Assembly: GCA_947446815.1 (NCBI GenBank)
Contig: CANFGT010000004.1
Span: 62,001 to 126,000 of the forward strand
DNA length: 64,000 bases
DNA from: Acidimicrobiaceae bacterium
Lineage (GTDB): Bacteria > Actinomycetota > Acidimicrobiia > Acidimicrobiales > Ilumatobacteraceae
Reading direction: 5' to 3'
Shown piece after piece: positions 22,641-28,362 of this stretch; positions within the stretch are counted from its first letter, which is position 1, and the number at the start of each line of letters is the position of its first letter. The position numbers and the translations under genes were made by a program. Under the pieces are notes generated by a model. That model was not told where the DNA came from and ran no database searches. It was given only the letters and a program-made list of their open reading frames with translations.

Positions 22641-23846
22641 CTAGTCGGCGAACAATGGCAAGAACGTGTGAATGTCCTTGCACTTTGTGAGTGCCTTGGT
22701 AAACGTGTGCACGTGCACAGCCATGTTGGTGATTCCTTCTGCAGGGAACTCCACCACCAAACGCACTTCGTCGTCACGCATCGACACACGCGCCCCGACC
22801 AATGAATCATTCAGTTTGTTGATTTCTCCGTAGACACCCAATGTCTCTGGCACGTCGCTCGACAACACAGCAGTCAGACGGACCGTGACTGTCATGTCTT
22901 CCAGTTCATGCAATGACACGTAACAGGTGTCGGAATCGTTCAGAGTGAATGTCATAAATGAAGGAATCTGACGCGACTTCCAATTGTCGACTTCGATACC
23001 CACGTTCTTCAGCTCACGAACCACCTTGTGATTCCAACGTGCAAGATGCTCAGCATCTAACAACATGCGGATTCCCCAGTCCGGGCCAACGAAATACGCG
23101 TACTCGGCGTTCTCACCATCGATGAAAATCTTCGCGTCTTCATCACGATCTTTTGTCAAGATCGCTTGAGCGACGTGATACGGGTAGAACGTCGCAGTGA
23201 TAGAGCCAGTGGTAGCCGCGGGGACAGCCCCGGTCATACGAGCAGCCTTCTGGCGACGCCAGTCCATTGTCCACGCCAACATGTCGTTTTCAATAGCAAG
23301 CGCGACAAACGGCATCAAGTGATGTTCATTCCAATTGACGCCACTTGGATACTTCAGAACAAACTTAGCGAACTGCACCAGGTTGGACATCGACACCATG
23401 GCCACTGCTGGCGCACTGTGATCGCTCTGCGAATTTCCCAAGTATGGAAGGTCTTGTGTTTCGAACTTCACATTCTTCGGGTGATCGATTGCGATGTAGC
23501 TGCCGTTATCGGAGCGCGCCACGATGGTGTCATCCACTTCGTTGTAGAAAATGTCGACTCCGTTGCCGGCATCAACAAAATCAATCAGTTCCTCAACGAA
23601 CAGTTCAGGAATAGGAAGCGCAAAGGAAGGGTCTGTTGCTTCTCCGTCGGCGGTGACCCACGCGAGAATGGTGCGATCGCGGTAGATCCACAAACGCTTT
23701 CCGTTCTCCCCCTTGGTCAACCACACAATGTGCCCCGGGTTTACCTTCTGATTAATGGCGTTCACCGTGAGATGAACTTCAAGAAGTTCACGCACTGTGA
23801 CGCGCACGCACCAATCAGAGCTATGTGATTCGAAGTCGGGAGTCAT
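22641..23846 (-). CDS. Uncharacterised protein A: sliding-clamp-like domains plus YbjN-like C-terminus
   Basis: 401 residues, no known family recognised with certainty. Residues about 1-125 and 150-275 each read like a DNA-clamp-type alpha/beta unit. The first has ALPIPELFVEELIDFV and then short beta strands; the second has MSNLVQFAKFVL, ENDMLAWTMDW and FYPYHVAQAIL. The last 130 residues resemble YbjN/T3SS-chaperone-like domains. It shares the second and third parts with the protein at 24498-25691 (WGIRMLL/WGVRIEL). ATG overlaps the upstream stop (TAATG), so it is coupled to that gene. All domain reading is by eye. Confidence 0.7.
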   Translation of the reverse strand: MTPDFESHSSDWCVRVTVRELLEVHLTVNAINQKVNPGHIVWLTKGENGKRLWIYRDRTILAWVTADGEATDPSFALPIPELFVEELIDFVDAGNGVDIFYNEVDDTIVARSDNGSYIAIDHPKNVKFETQDLPYLGNSQSDHSAPAVAMVSMSNLVQFAKFVLKYPSGVNWNEHHLMPFVALAIENDMLAWTMDWRRQKAARMTGAVPAATTGSITATFYPYHVAQAILTKDRDEDAKIFIDGENAEYAYFVGPDWGIRMLLDAEHLARWNHKVVRELKNVGIEVDNWKSRQIPSFMTFTLNDSDTCYVSLHELEDMTVTVRLTAVLSSDVPETLGVYGEINKLNDSLVGARVSMRDDEVRLVVEFPAEGITNMAVHVHTFTKALTKCKDIHTFLPLFAD

Positions 23847-24250
23847 TACTTGCGCACCACACGAACATGTGTGGCTGGCACGAAACTCAAGGCTGCATCG
23901 CCCACAATTGCTGGACCGAGGTCCGGCTGGTACTGGCTCGACGAAGGAGCAGCAACATCGACCTCGTCAAGGACGCGGTAAATATCAAGGAAGCGGTTGG
24001 ACAACTTCATTCCGGACTTGAATGACAACTGCTCGAAACCGATAACGAAATCGCCGTCTTCCGTACGGGCGAGATACGCCCAGTTGCCGTTCTCTGTCTC
24101 GGGGCATGGACCCAAAACGTCAATCATGTGGCGATTGAGGTCGCGGATCTTTGGTTCCAAATCGAGAACGACCTTCTCGATTTCTTCAATCGATTGCGAA
24201 GGATTGAACGGCTCGAAGCCGTCACCAAAAGGGGAAGATGAATGGGACAT
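23846..24250 (-). CDS. Uncharacterised protein C of the clamp-like locus
   Basis: 134 residues, function unknown. N-terminal third (SQSIEEIEKVVLDLEPKI) is helical. The middle has ENGNWAYLARTEDGDFVIGF, a beta-rich stretch. The C-terminus is Ser/Pro/Gly-linked and basic (HVRVVRK). An AAGGAG Shine-Dalgarno precedes ATG 24250. The stop overlaps the start of the larger downstream gene (TAATG), tying the two products. It could be a partner of the clamp-like protein; no homology was recognised. Confidence 0.65.
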   Translation of the reverse strand: MSHSSSPFGDGFEPFNPSQSIEEIEKVVLDLEPKIRDLNRHMIDVLGPCPETENGNWAYLARTEDGDFVIGFEQLSFKSGMKLSNRFLDIYRVLDEVDVAAPSSSQYQPDLGPAIVGDAALSFVPATHVRVVRK

Positions 24251-24497
24251 GTAGATACTCCTTGTTGAGGGATTTCGGTTTGTAGGTAAAAGAAAGTCCG
24301 AAAACTGAATCTCGGATAAGTCAGGCCGAGGCTTAGTTCTTGGACATTCGTATAAGCCGAAATCTGAGCATCTACATTCCTTTCTCTATGGGGCTTCCGC
24401 GGGGGGATGAGTAGTCAATCATCTATTAAAGGTGGATGCAACCTTATTTGACGACTACGTGAACAAAATATCTGATAGTTCATTTCCTAGACGACTG
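24251..24497. other. 247-bp intergenic region inside the clamp-like locus
   Basis: No gene seen. It is more AT-rich than the flanks and must hold the promoter of the C-A gene pair and the 3' end of the B transcript. An inverted repeat CTCGG/CCGAG lies at 24311-24330. The short plus-strand frame here is a shadow of the gene ending at 24498. Confidence 0.5.
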
Positions 24498-25691
24498 CTA
24501 CAGAAAAACACCAACGACCTCTACAACTACTTTGGACTTTTCCACAAGATCAACAACAGCTGCCGGCATCAGTTCCATCTCTTCTGCAGTCACATCACGC
24601 AATGCAACAAGGTCGGTTTCATGACGCACCAACTTCACATTTGTCCACTGGTTATTCCAATCGTTGATCTCTGATGCAACCTCAAGGTTCCACGGAGCAT
24701 CCGGAAGAACAACTGTGGATAAACGGAAGTAATCCGCCTGTCCATCAATACCCTTCATGATTTCCACAGAGACATCAATGCCACTGAAATGACAGTTAAT
24801 GATGGGACTCCAACCAATGCGCTCGTCCTTATCGACATCAATCTCATTTTCCGACAACTTTTGGACCAACGCATTGCGGTACTGATGCACGGTTTCATTG
24901 CCTAATTCAATGCGAACGCCCCAATGAACACCGTCTAGAAAAGCGATATTGGGTGTCTCATCTGAAAAACAGAACTTCACGGACTCAGTCCCATACATAT
25001 CGGAATAAAAGAGTTCACGCGGCAAAGCAATGGGATACGACGAGAAATTTCGGGGCTCTGCACCTTCGGCCGTAATCGACACAGAAATTGTTGGACCGCC
25101 GAATGTGGACCAATCCCGCTTTGCAACCAGTGATTCATCTGCGTAGGAGAACTCAATAAATGGCAGCGGCTCCTCTAAAAGATCTGGATCGATTGTCACG
25201 GGGAACATCAAGTGTGCGTGACCCAATTGCTGGAGCTCGTCCACATCTACCGTGATGTAGGAATTTGCTGTAAAGGATAAATCAACAGGCTTGATGTCCT
25301 GCGATGGCAAATCAAAGTCGATATTCACCAAGCCATTAGCAAGTTCAATTTTCCCCTTCTTGAAATCAATTCCAACGATCGTGGGAAAAACATCGGGAAA
25401 CACGTGTGTTGCGAATTCCAATACGTTGATGGGAAGAGTGAGATAGCCCTCCTTCGGTCCACCATCTCGAGCGAATTCCTGAAACCCTGTGATGTTCTGC
25501 TCACGCATCACCCACCTGCGACTTGTTTCGCCAAACTGCAATTGAAACCCGAACCCCATGTATGGCTCAGGGGCATAACGGGTTGCTAACTGAAGAACTG
25601 TCGAAGCTTCTTCGTGAGAAAGATTGAACGTGAACTTCTCGGGAAGTCCGGCGGGATTGGTGGCACCTGTAATAGAGGAAGAATCAGACAT
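24498..25691 (-). CDS. Uncharacterised protein B: paralogue of protein A
   Basis: 397 residues. It aligns by eye with the protein at 22641-23846 in its second and third parts: DESLVAKRDWSTFGGP vs NDMLAWTMDWRRQKAA, SYPIALPREL vs FYPYHVAQAI, and GVHWGVRIEL vs GPDWGIRMLL. A C-terminal domain follows (SEINDWNNQWTNVKLVRHET) of the YbjN-like kind, with the asparagine-tryptophan core. The first part (LTLPINVLEFATHVFP) is also clamp-like. The two are therefore divergent relatives on the same strand, separated by a small gene and an intergenic stretch. Function unknown. Confidence 0.7.
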   Translation of the reverse strand: MSDSSSITGATNPAGLPEKFTFNLSHEEASTVLQLATRYAPEPYMGFGFQLQFGETSRRWVMREQNITGFQEFARDGGPKEGYLTLPINVLEFATHVFPDVFPTIVGIDFKKGKIELANGLVNIDFDLPSQDIKPVDLSFTANSYITVDVDELQQLGHAHLMFPVTIDPDLLEEPLPFIEFSYADESLVAKRDWSTFGGPTISVSITAEGAEPRNFSSYPIALPRELFYSDMYGTESVKFCFSDETPNIAFLDGVHWGVRIELGNETVHQYRNALVQKLSENEIDVDKDERIGWSPIINCHFSGIDVSVEIMKGIDGQADYFRLSTVVLPDAPWNLEVASEINDWNNQWTNVKLVRHETDLVALRDVTAEEMELMPAAVVDLVEKSKVVVEVVGVFL

Positions 25692-25786: not shown

Positions 25787-27499
25787 CTACGCGGTGGGGT
25801 TTGTGATGGCGCCGGTTTCAGCACCTTGCACAAGCTTTGCAAACTTCGCAAGAACACCTGTGGTGTAACGCGGTGGGTTTGGCTTCCAACCAACTTTGCG
25901 CTTTTCCATTTCAGCTGCATCGACAAGAACATCAAGTGCTTTCGTTGGAACATCGATACGAATGCGATCGCCTTCATTGACAAATGCAATCGGACCGCCA
26001 TCAACTGCTTCCGGTGCGACGTGACCGATGCAGAAACCCCATGTACCACCGGAGAAACGACCATCAGTAATGAGTGCAACAGTGGAACCCATGCCAGCAC
26101 CCTTTAATGCACCAGTAATTGCGAGCATTTCGCGCATTCCAGGGCCACCTTTCGGGCCTTCGTAACGGATCACAATGACGTCACCGTGATTGATCTTGCC
26201 CGTCATGATGGCATCCATCGCACCGTCTTCACCGTCGAACACGCGAGCAGGGCCTTCAAACTGCATCTGATCTTTTGTGAGACCAGCCACCTTTACAACA
26301 CTGCCCTTTGGCGCAAGTGAGCCCGTGAGAATGTTGATGCCACCTTCAGCGTGAATTGGATCGCTGAGTGGGTGCACTACATCACCATCTGGTTGTGGTG
26401 GATTGATGTCTGCCAAGTTCTCGGCCATTGTCTTACCGGTGCATGTCATCACATCGCCGTGCAACAAACCTGCATCAAGAAGATGCTTCAACACCACGGG
26501 AACACCACCGATGCGGTGCATGTCGGACATGTGGTACTTGCCGCCGGGCTTTGTGTCCGCAATATGTGGCACCTTGTCTGCGATGCGGTTGAAGTCTTCA
26601 AGCTTCAGATCAACGCCGGCTTCATTAGCGATTGCAAGAAGGTGCAACACAGCATTAGTGCTTCCGCCCAAGGCATTTGTGACAGCAATGGCATTTTCAA
26701 ATGCTTCCTTCGTCATGATGTCGCGCGGACGGAGACCAAGACGCAACATGTTGACAACTGCAGCGCCAGCGCGCTCGGCATCACCTTCACGTGATCGATC
26801 AATTGCAGGTGCTGATGCAGTGCCAGGAAGGCTCATGCCAAGCGCTTCGGCAATGGATGACATCGTGTTAGCGGTAAACATGCCGCCACACGCTCCTTCA
26901 CCAGGACAAGCAGACTTTTCAATCTCTGTGAGTTCTTCTTGCGACATTGTTCCCGCAGCAACAGCACCGATTGCTTCGAACACCGTGGTGATGTCAATGT
27001 TCTTGCCATCGTGATGTCCGGGCATGGTGGAGCCGTTGTAGACAAACACACTGGAGACATTGAGACGTGCAGCAGCCATGAGCATTGCAGGAATGCTCTT
27101 GTCGCAACCTGCGAGACCAACAAATCCATCGAAGCGCTCACCATGAATCACTGTTTCAACAGAGTCAGTGATGACTTCGCGTGACACAAGTGATGCACGC
27201 ATGCCTTCGTGGCCCATGCTGATGCCATCAGACACCGTGATGGTGCCGAACTCGAGTGCAACACCGCCCGCTTCACGAACACCCTTTTTTGCGTGTTCAG
27301 CAAGACGACGTAACGACATGTTGCATGGTGTTACTTCATTCCATGCAGACGCAATACCCACCTGCGGCTTTTGCCAGTCATCATCGGTGAGACCCACTGC
27401 GCGCAACATGGCGCGAGCCGCTGCCTTTTGGTTGCCGTCGGTGACGTCGCGGCTACGTGGTTTGATGTCGATGGGGGTGCCGTCTGCGCTTGGGGACAT
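25787..27499 (-). CDS. ilvD: Dihydroxy-acid dehydratase
   Basis: 570 residues from ATG 27499 ([20 protein letters not shown]). Iron-sulfur enzyme, third step of valine/isoleucine synthesis. Cys residues for the cluster lie in [25 protein letters not shown] and [16 protein letters not shown], the last a hallmark of the family. The C-terminal [23 protein letters not shown] holds the second signature. The frame open to 27655 would overlap the iron permease and is rejected. It is separated from ilvBNC by accessory genes. Confidence 0.96.
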
Positions 27500-27543
27500 G
27501 CTGACCACGCTACTGCCCCGCTCTAAACGACCGTGTGGTGGGC

Positions 27544-28362
27544 TTATGCCTTGGGTGCATCCGATGGCCTTGGTCCACGCAGGAACAGGTAGCTGACAGG
27601 CAACAGATAGGCGAAGTACGAGATGAGGCGGATGCGCTCTGGGTCTTTCACCCATCCAAAGAAACCTTTCATGAAGTCATAGAAAGTGCCTTCGGCGAAT
27701 GCGCCCGACTTGATATTCCAAGTGGAATCAAACAACCAACCCGATTCGAATCCAAAAAGTTCGCGATACTCGTGGAAGAACTTTCCGAAGAGCCCAGCTG
27801 CGAACAAGATGAGCAAAGCACCGGTCACGTTGAAGAAGGTGCTGAGTTTGATCTTGTTGCCACCGAGATACACGAGGCGACCAAGCACTGCTGCAATTGC
27901 GAGCCCAATGAGTCCACCAATTACTACTGAAGTGCCCGAAGCATTTGCAGTTTCAGCAGAAATCAGGAACAGCACCGTTTCGAGGCCTTCGCGAAACACA
28001 GCAACAAATGCAATGGTCACTAGCGCTTTGCGGGTCGTCGCCGCATCAACCTGAGCGCGAAGGTCGGCACCCATATTGCGTGCGTGATTACGCATCCAAA
28101 AGATCATCCACGTAAGAACGGATGCAGCGAGAATCGCAATAGTGCCCTCAATGAACTGTTCGGCCTTGCCCTCAAATTCACCAACAAAGATGTGAAATGC
28201 AATTCCGCCGATAATGCACATGCCGGCAGCTAATGCTGAACCTCGCCACACGTCGGCGATGTCGGAACGACGATCGCTCTTCACGAGATAGGAAATGAGA
28301 ATTGCCAGGACCAGAGAAATCTCGAGGCCTTCGCGAAGTGTGATGAGGAAGCTTGCGCCCAT
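27544..28362 (-). CDS. efeU: FTR1-family iron permease
   Basis: 272 residues, seven predicted membrane helices. Both family iron motifs are present: [18 protein letters not shown] near the start and [16 protein letters not shown] near residue 125. The REGLE pairs carry the glutamates that ferry iron. The efeO and efeB partners of the E. coli EfeUOB system are not adjacent. Two IdeR/DtxR-like boxes sit directly upstream, suggesting iron-repressed expression. Confidence 0.93.

Follow-up and report, generated by a model that had tools for sequence, protein, structure and literature searches.

Systems centred on ADP-ribosylglycohydrolase (ARG) have been predicted in section 3.8 of PMC9503650, where the TY-Chap1 domain is also defined. 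Among the matches listed in the open-licence literature of PubMed Central (PMC), these ARG-centric systems are represented by that prediction and by no experiment. Here we analyse a locus of three genes (positions 22641–25691, minus strand) from a lake bacterium (Acidimicrobiaceae bacterium, assembly GCA_947446815.1; 1.96 Mb in 19 contigs, completeness 90.85%). The locus lies on the contig CANFGT010000004.1 (C4) within a stretch of 64,000 nucleotides, which is referred to below as the window. Two of the genes, P0001 and P0003, encode proteins with two predicted sliding-clamp-like domains and a C-terminal TY domain similar to TY-Chap1 and YbjN, called clamp-TY proteins in the following. The third gene, P0002, encodes a small partner. 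We propose, with moderate confidence, that P0001 and P0003 are client-binding chaperone or scaffold subunits of ARG-centric ADP-ribose removal.

The locus resembles the systems of PMC9503650 in that, beside its relatives, TY-Chap1 occurs together with ARG, a DSP/rhodanese-type phosphatase, an NrtR-like Nudix protein, HD, vWA and ARPP. It differs from them in that the main text of PMC9503650 names no clamp, DnaN, PCNA or DUF3293, in that the coupled small partner is absent from its ARG-centric section, and in that the enzymes of the window's genome are encoded on another contig. An earlier note on this DNA, made from the letters alone, had regarded the locus as a candidate for an undescribed system. 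This holds for the clamp part of the ARG-centric TY-Chap1 proteins, which is new here, but not for the TY-Chap1-like end and the ARG-centric neighbourhoods, which that paper predicts; the kind of system has so far only been predicted. Compared with DnaN (PF00712/PF02767/PF02768), the clamp-TY proteins share two consecutive clamp domains by profile, but the third clamp domain is replaced by the TY domain and the inner helices are more acidic. The domain of TY-Chap1/YbjN (PF22551, PF10722) corresponds to the C-terminal ~125 residues and is fused here behind two clamp-like domains. Among the matches listed in open-licence PMC, none brought sliding clamps together with TY/YbjN chaperones; this is a collection in which subscription papers and preprints are mostly uncovered.

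The genes and domains of the locus are as follows.

22641–23846, minus strand: P0001, whole gene of a clamp-clamp-TY-chaperone protein of 401 amino acids (open reading frame and family alignment)
23403–23822, minus strand: clamp-like domain 1 of P0001, residues ~9–148 (profile comparison with DnaN D1 and bridge; approximate limits)
23043–23402, minus strand: clamp-like domain 2 of P0001, residues ~149–268 (profile comparison with DnaN D3 and with D1; approximate limits)
22662–23039, minus strand: TY-Chap1/YbjN-like domain of P0001, residues ~270–395 (PF22551 and profile–profile match)
23846–24250, minus strand: P0002, small partner of 134 amino acids (open reading frame and relatives at the same place)
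24498–25691, minus strand: P0003, whole gene of the second clamp-clamp-TY paralogue, 397 amino acids (open reading frame, alignment, own clade)
25269–25646, minus strand: clamp-like domain 1 of P0003, residues ~16–141 (from the alignment with P0001; approximate limits)
24888–25268, minus strand: clamp-like domain 2 of P0003, residues ~142–268 (from the alignment with P0001; approximate limits)
24513–24884, minus strand: TY-Chap1/YbjN-like domain of P0003, residues ~270–393 (from the alignment; weak alone)

The positions and the common strand of the three open reading frames agree with the earlier note, as does the coupling of the 134-residue gene to P0001: the stop codon of P0002 and the start codon of P0001 form TAATG, with one base in common. 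A gap of 247 bases separates P0003 from P0002, and P0003 may therefore be a separate transcription unit. The closest relatives retain all three reading frames (identity 73–74%, 87–89% and 80–81%), so the three genes look real. The two large proteins had been described as paralogues, and a single pairwise comparison aligns them over 349 columns with 20% identity (E=1e-10). The segment pairs AWTMDW/VAKRDW, YPYHVAQ/YPIALPR and WGIRMLL/WGVRIEL, from which this had been deduced, line up with each other in a 22-member alignment. The Trp-Asn-rich C-terminus ascribed to both was found only in part: an EIN-x2-N motif is common (N343 and N346 in P0001), but tryptophans stand out in proteins of the P0003 type only.

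Pfam recognises only the end of P0001, and family alignments were therefore built. None of the clamp families in Pfam was matched at E-values up to 10 by the three window proteins, or up to 1 by 22 family members. The profile of these 22 members gave nothing significant against the Protein Data Bank (PDB); of its five matches within the limit of E=10, three were to DnaN (E 0.58 to 0.9). The 27-member profile gave three matches with E=0.00099 to 0.011, namely two DnaN proteins and 2z0l (Early antigen protein D), which we take to be the Epstein-Barr clamp BMRF1. With 46 members, eight of the nine matches were DnaN clamps (E=8.9e-9, 6.8e-7, 1.9e-4 and 0.0091, and four at 0.12–0.6), and the ninth, Tll0839 (2plg, E=0.0039), lies at the TY part. 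These PDB matches depend on ten divergent rows, a clade with DUF3293 fusions and others; the 36-member profile without them gave zero matches at E up to 10.

The family was further compared with 25 actinobacterial DnaN proteins using hhalign. Domains 1–2 scored 55.2 against DnaN D1–D2 and 54.2 against D2–D3, while the reversed control gave 17.6, the highest of 50 block shuffles 22.5 and the highest of 27 unrelated families 18.4. The list of unrelated families also contained two clusters, not among the 27, that are family or TY-Chap1 proteins themselves. Taken singly in the 46-member family, D1 scored 31.2 against DnaN D1 over 109 columns and D2 scored 33.5 against DnaN D3; the score of family D1 against D2 was 36.4. 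For scale, the domains of DnaN itself score 88.3, 25.1 and 18.6 against each other.

For a bridge comparison, domains 1–2 were cut out alone, so that the TY domain cannot contribute. Against DnaN, the ten divergent rows scored 60.0 (controls up to 20.7), the 22 other rows from outside the window's genus 39.2 (controls up to 21.4) and the 14 genus rows 30.3, where one unrelated family reached 27.7 and shuffles up to 19.2. The genus rows scored 100.7 over 231 columns against the ten divergent rows and 182.9 against the 22 others, and the ten scored 164.8 against the 22. Because the two steps reach 100.7 and then 60.0, whereas the genus scores 30.3 directly, the window proteins are considered clamp-like through a strong two-step bridge and not by a direct match. 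By this bridge, the first two domains of P0001 and P0003 are predicted to be sliding-clamp-like. The order read by the earlier note, DnaN-type domains followed by a YbjN-like domain, is thus borne out by profile evidence, for the window's own genus only through its divergent relatives.

The interpretation of residues 1–268 as duplicated TY domains was rejected. D1, D2 and D1–D2 scored at most 14.6 against TY-Chap1 and TY-Chap2, compared with the 36.4 between D1 and D2 and the 31.2 and 33.5 against DnaN. The TY-Chap2 comparison is weak because the sequence set is crude, consisting of five crude open reading frames, two of them probably in wrong frames as judged by eye.

The last ~125 residues are, as far as sequence comparison can tell, TY-Chap1/YbjN-like. 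P0001 matches PF22551 (TY-Chap1) with E=9.3e-6 and 25.8 bits, below the 27-bit cut-off, and the matches of P0003 alone are weak (YbjN, E=0.044; TY-Chap1, E=0.057). PF22551 is found in 17 of the 22 members at E up to 1, the best value being 3.7e-6; the Pfam cut-off is not reached by P0001, by P0003 or by six of nine additional clamp-TY members. The third domain of the family scored 110.7 against six independent TY-Chap1 sequences, 78.8 when the ten divergent rows were removed, with shuffles up to 40.6, and at most 19.0 against any DnaN domain. A TY-Chap1 alignment that included three family members themselves gave 141.8. Neither TY-Chap2 nor TY-Chap3 was matched in the window's own genome.

The clamp homology found by profile would also fit a genuine DNA-encircling clamp, in which a PCNA-like trimer of six clamp domains would patrol DNA, and the TY domain and the small partner would recruit ARG to DarT-type adducts. 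This appears rather unlikely. In its favour, the YbjN-like protein dr1245 of Deinococcus is reported to partner the SSB-like protein DdrB (PMC3575483). AAA+ ATPases are also encoded beside some relatives and beside ARG genes. By Pfam, however, the neighbouring ATPases are AAA with AAA_lid_6 or AAA_5, which we take to be CbbX- and MoxR-like proteins and not clamp loaders. The four predicted ring-lining helices of the family carry net charges of −1.56, −0.96, +0.52 and −2.33 (27 members), with a mean of −1.08, compared with a mean of −0.05 (range −2.40 to +0.80) for six inner segments of DnaN (21–25 sequences), the helix limits being approximate in both cases. The net charge of D1–D2 averages −17. 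Since the predicted inner helices are acidic on average and the genome has a separate DnaN gene of its own on contig C2, a protein scaffold appears more likely than a DNA clamp. A related proposal sees the clamp-TY proteins as a second sliding-clamp line. Its two-domain clamps would probably assemble into a ring of six domains with chaperone arms, be loaded or remodelled by AAA+ proteins, and scan DNA or nascent complexes for adducts of ADP-ribose, to which they would bring ARG and the phosphatase. We give it a small chance of being correct.

Gene neighbourhoods support the proposed role of P0001 and P0003 in ADP-ribose removal. Genes for ARG, NrtR-type Nudix, phosphatase, vWA or HD are present in 31 of 65 clamp-TY loci and in none of 20 control regions, which were taken from 20 of the same genomes and have a mean length of 11.0 kb, compared with 11.3 kb for the loci (phmmer, E<1e-10). 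Two of the test loci, L032 and L040, also supplied some of the seeds; when both are removed, the count becomes 29 of 63. Loci located at contig ends were retained, whereas L028, L276 and TY-only loci were left out, as were the fragmentary matches in G300, G348, G360, G400, G467, G469 and G474. At least one of the five component types occurs in 12 of 18 genera, and ARG itself in six of the 65 loci. Examples of such neighbours by Pfam are ADP_ribosyl_GH, NUDIX with NrtR_WHD, DSPc, HD_4, VWA and ARPP-1. In two genomes, G329 and G458 (L032 and L033), the module lies at the same site as ARG, NrtR-type Nudix and HD genes, and in G128 (L040), from another family, it is found together with ARG-vWA, DSP phosphatase, NrtR and HD genes.

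The window's own genome encodes ARG fused to a phosphatase (G000:C12:7686–8519, E=3.9e-57), and on the same contig an NrtR-type regulator and a vWA gene lie beside it, the vWA match being weak (E=0.00031). Among 22 genomes of the genus, this one included, ARG was detected in 13 of 16 with clamp-TY and in none of six without (p=0.001, relatedness ignored); the first count becomes 12 of 15 if one genome with only a fragmentary clamp-TY match is removed. Among 200 genomes of the family, 29 contain both, 34 only a match to the clamp-TY family, 17 only ARG and 120 neither, the TY-only genomes G309, G312 and G339 having been removed before this count.

Several results weigh against the proposed role, in addition to the empty 36-member search and the low direct score of the genus rows described above. 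No gene of the five component types was seen in 34 of the 65 loci, among them 11 of 14 in the genus. The clamp-TY genes of the window's genome are not adjacent to its ARG genes (contigs C4 and C12), and no operator common to the NrtR/ARG region and the two upstream regions of the window was found, the comparison yielding one 9-mer and no palindrome. Three genomes of the genus carry the module with no ARG detected. In the family ARG went undetected in 34 of 63 genomes with a match, many of which are incomplete, some of the matches being fragmentary. No experimental result on any family member was found among the matches listed in the open-licence PMC literature. The best reading is that P0001-type proteins would be fast-evolving clamp-fold chaperone subunits of an anti-ADP-ribosylation system.

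Further gene arrangements were observed around the relatives. One clamp-TY locus with phosphatase, vWA and NrtR genes also contains an ARPP-1 gene (L215:1553–2461; PF20208, E=6.2e-63). AAA+ ATPases with AAA and AAA_lid_6 (L234:8994–10481, L237:8864–10219 and L114:5280–6683) have an N-terminal part that looks YbjN/TY-like by eye. Such ATPases adjoin ARG genes or Nudix-clamp-TY loci and occur in 10 of 32 genus genomes, the window's own genome being without one. A 215-residue family that matches nothing in Pfam is repeatedly encoded next to the Nudix regulator and the AAA+ ATPase (L114:6684–7331, L195, L196, L198 and L213). Clamp-TY proteins with a C-terminal DUF3293 (PF11697) are encoded at L116:8808–10499, L117:8262–9815 and L118:8814–10622, two of which adjoin a vWA gene. 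At L217:4025–8355 and L224:5054–9400 a vWA gene, an AAA_5 ATPase gene and a gene for a 463-residue protein with no Pfam match precede clamp-TY; L223 and L225 show vWA and clamp-TY genes as partial counterparts. This arrangement, seen in one genus, recalls the MoxR-vWA ternary conflict systems of PMC7159879 and is possibly a variant of them, but its third component is clamp-TY, and the word "clamp" is absent from that text.

In the window, the three genes are flanked on the right by ilvD (25787–27577) and on the left by a DUF3054 gene, beyond which lies a myo-inositol-1-phosphate synthase gene, as identified by Pfam. The slot between ilvD and the DUF3054 gene varies within the genus: it holds three genes, two genes, or two together with NrtR or with ARG/NrtR/HD. 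A role unrelated to ADP-ribose, as a chaperone serving the biosynthetic genes nearby (ilvD and inositol-phosphate synthase), would explain why both flank the module in 12 of 14 genus loci; of the other two, one stops at a contig end and in one the inositol gene is present on a single side. We consider this explanation unlikely. Outside the genus the ilvD site was found in none of the loci examined with these seeds, and many of those loci carry ARG-system genes. Moreover, the flanking enzymes are conserved, but the module is not. At the ilvD site IlvD (ten loci; L034, whose stretch contains no ilvD, was left out) and inositol-phosphate synthase (eleven loci) are 82–98% identical to those of the window. 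The identity of P0001 in the eleven loci is 74% in two, 43–44% in two and 19–26% in seven. Values for a membrane protein, whose query was in a wrong reading frame, are left out of this comparison. Rapid evolution is among the hallmarks of conflict systems listed in PMC9503650.

All 14 genus loci examined have a P0002-type gene directly before a clamp-TY gene, and a profile finds one in this position in ten loci from other genera. The small proteins are acidic in 15 of 15 aligned cases, with net charges of −3 to −13. In many further loci a short open reading frame ends at the start of clamp-TY; these frames are at most candidate homologues of P0002, and some are chance frames. No P0002-type match was obtained at P0003-type copies, DUF3293 fusions or loci with the 463-residue upstream protein. 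Of the three genes, whose co-occurrence the earlier note had suggested checking, the small gene and one clamp-TY gene form the usual unit of the genus; P0003 is an extra in part of it. Proteins of the P0003 type form a single clade (100/100) inside the genus clade (100/99) of a 53-row tree, from which we infer an old duplicate retained in part of the genus.

With P0001 as a query, matches were found in at least 3 of 298 genomes of the order. The A1 profile matched at least 22 of 395 genomes of the class, several of them TY-only. The A7 profile matched at least 66 of 200 family genomes, including three TY-only and some fragmentary matches, and at least 6 of 236 genomes across the phylum, with full-length matches in the window's own genome and in G905, which lies outside the class. 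These counts are lower bounds because only the best candidates of each genome were scored (four for A1, nine for A7 in the family and eight for A7 in the phylum). Most of the relatives found in named records belong to metagenome genomes that carry the label Ilumatobacteraceae, Acidimicrobiaceae or Actinomycetota, and one is labelled acIV.

The variable site with its small coupled gene could also suggest a polymorphic toxin-immunity or toxin-antitoxin cassette, and one of the 15 small proteins shows a weak match to Imm32 (E=0.0056). This explanation is very unlikely. No confident toxin or nuclease match was found in the 22 and nine further clamp-TY members, only chance-level ones such as TAL_effector (E=0.048), and PADLOC matches none of the three window proteins. 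P0001 has no close relatives in phage or plasmid records, and no relatives were found in viral contigs either, in searches that reach mainly close relatives; PHROG matches were no better than E=0.23. The earlier note had seen no enzymatic motif in the locus, and Pfam and NCBIfam likewise gave only chance-level matches and no confident match to an enzyme family. Of the two outcomes that the note had named as refuting, such a match or unrelated folds in the two proteins, neither was obtained, folds being judged here from sequence profiles.

We propose the following course of events for the chaperone or scaffold role. The pair of clamp domains would serve as a platform for oligomerisation or protein docking, and the TY domain would hold exposed peptide segments of ADP-ribosylated or misfolded clients, in keeping with the client-binding idea put forward for TY-Chap1 in PMC9503650. 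The protein ring that the earlier note had suggested is a possible form of the complex. The complex might pass the clients to ARG and the phosphatase, and remodelling of the clients may be carried out by vWA together with AAA+ partners, or else by those AAA+ proteins that are encoded beside ARG in relatives. The small protein would act as an adaptor. In the window's genome, where ARG is encoded on contig C12, the enzymes would work in trans. ADP-ribose would in this way be removed from macromolecules, possibly after attack by the ADP-ribosyltransferase of a phage or a rival.

To our knowledge, the known role of sliding clamps is almost exclusively that of DNA processivity factors. The combination of a clamp fold with a peptide-chaperone domain and a linkage to de-ADP-ribosylation would mean either that the fold has been co-opted to serve as a scaffold for proteins or that clamps take part in ADP-ribose repair. 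If the second clamp line were real, bacteria would have a machine built on a clamp for the surveillance and repair of ADP-ribosylation. The clamp-TY proteins would provide the ARG-centric systems with a concrete, testable subunit, and a repair or anti-virus system may have made new use of a fold known from DNA replication.

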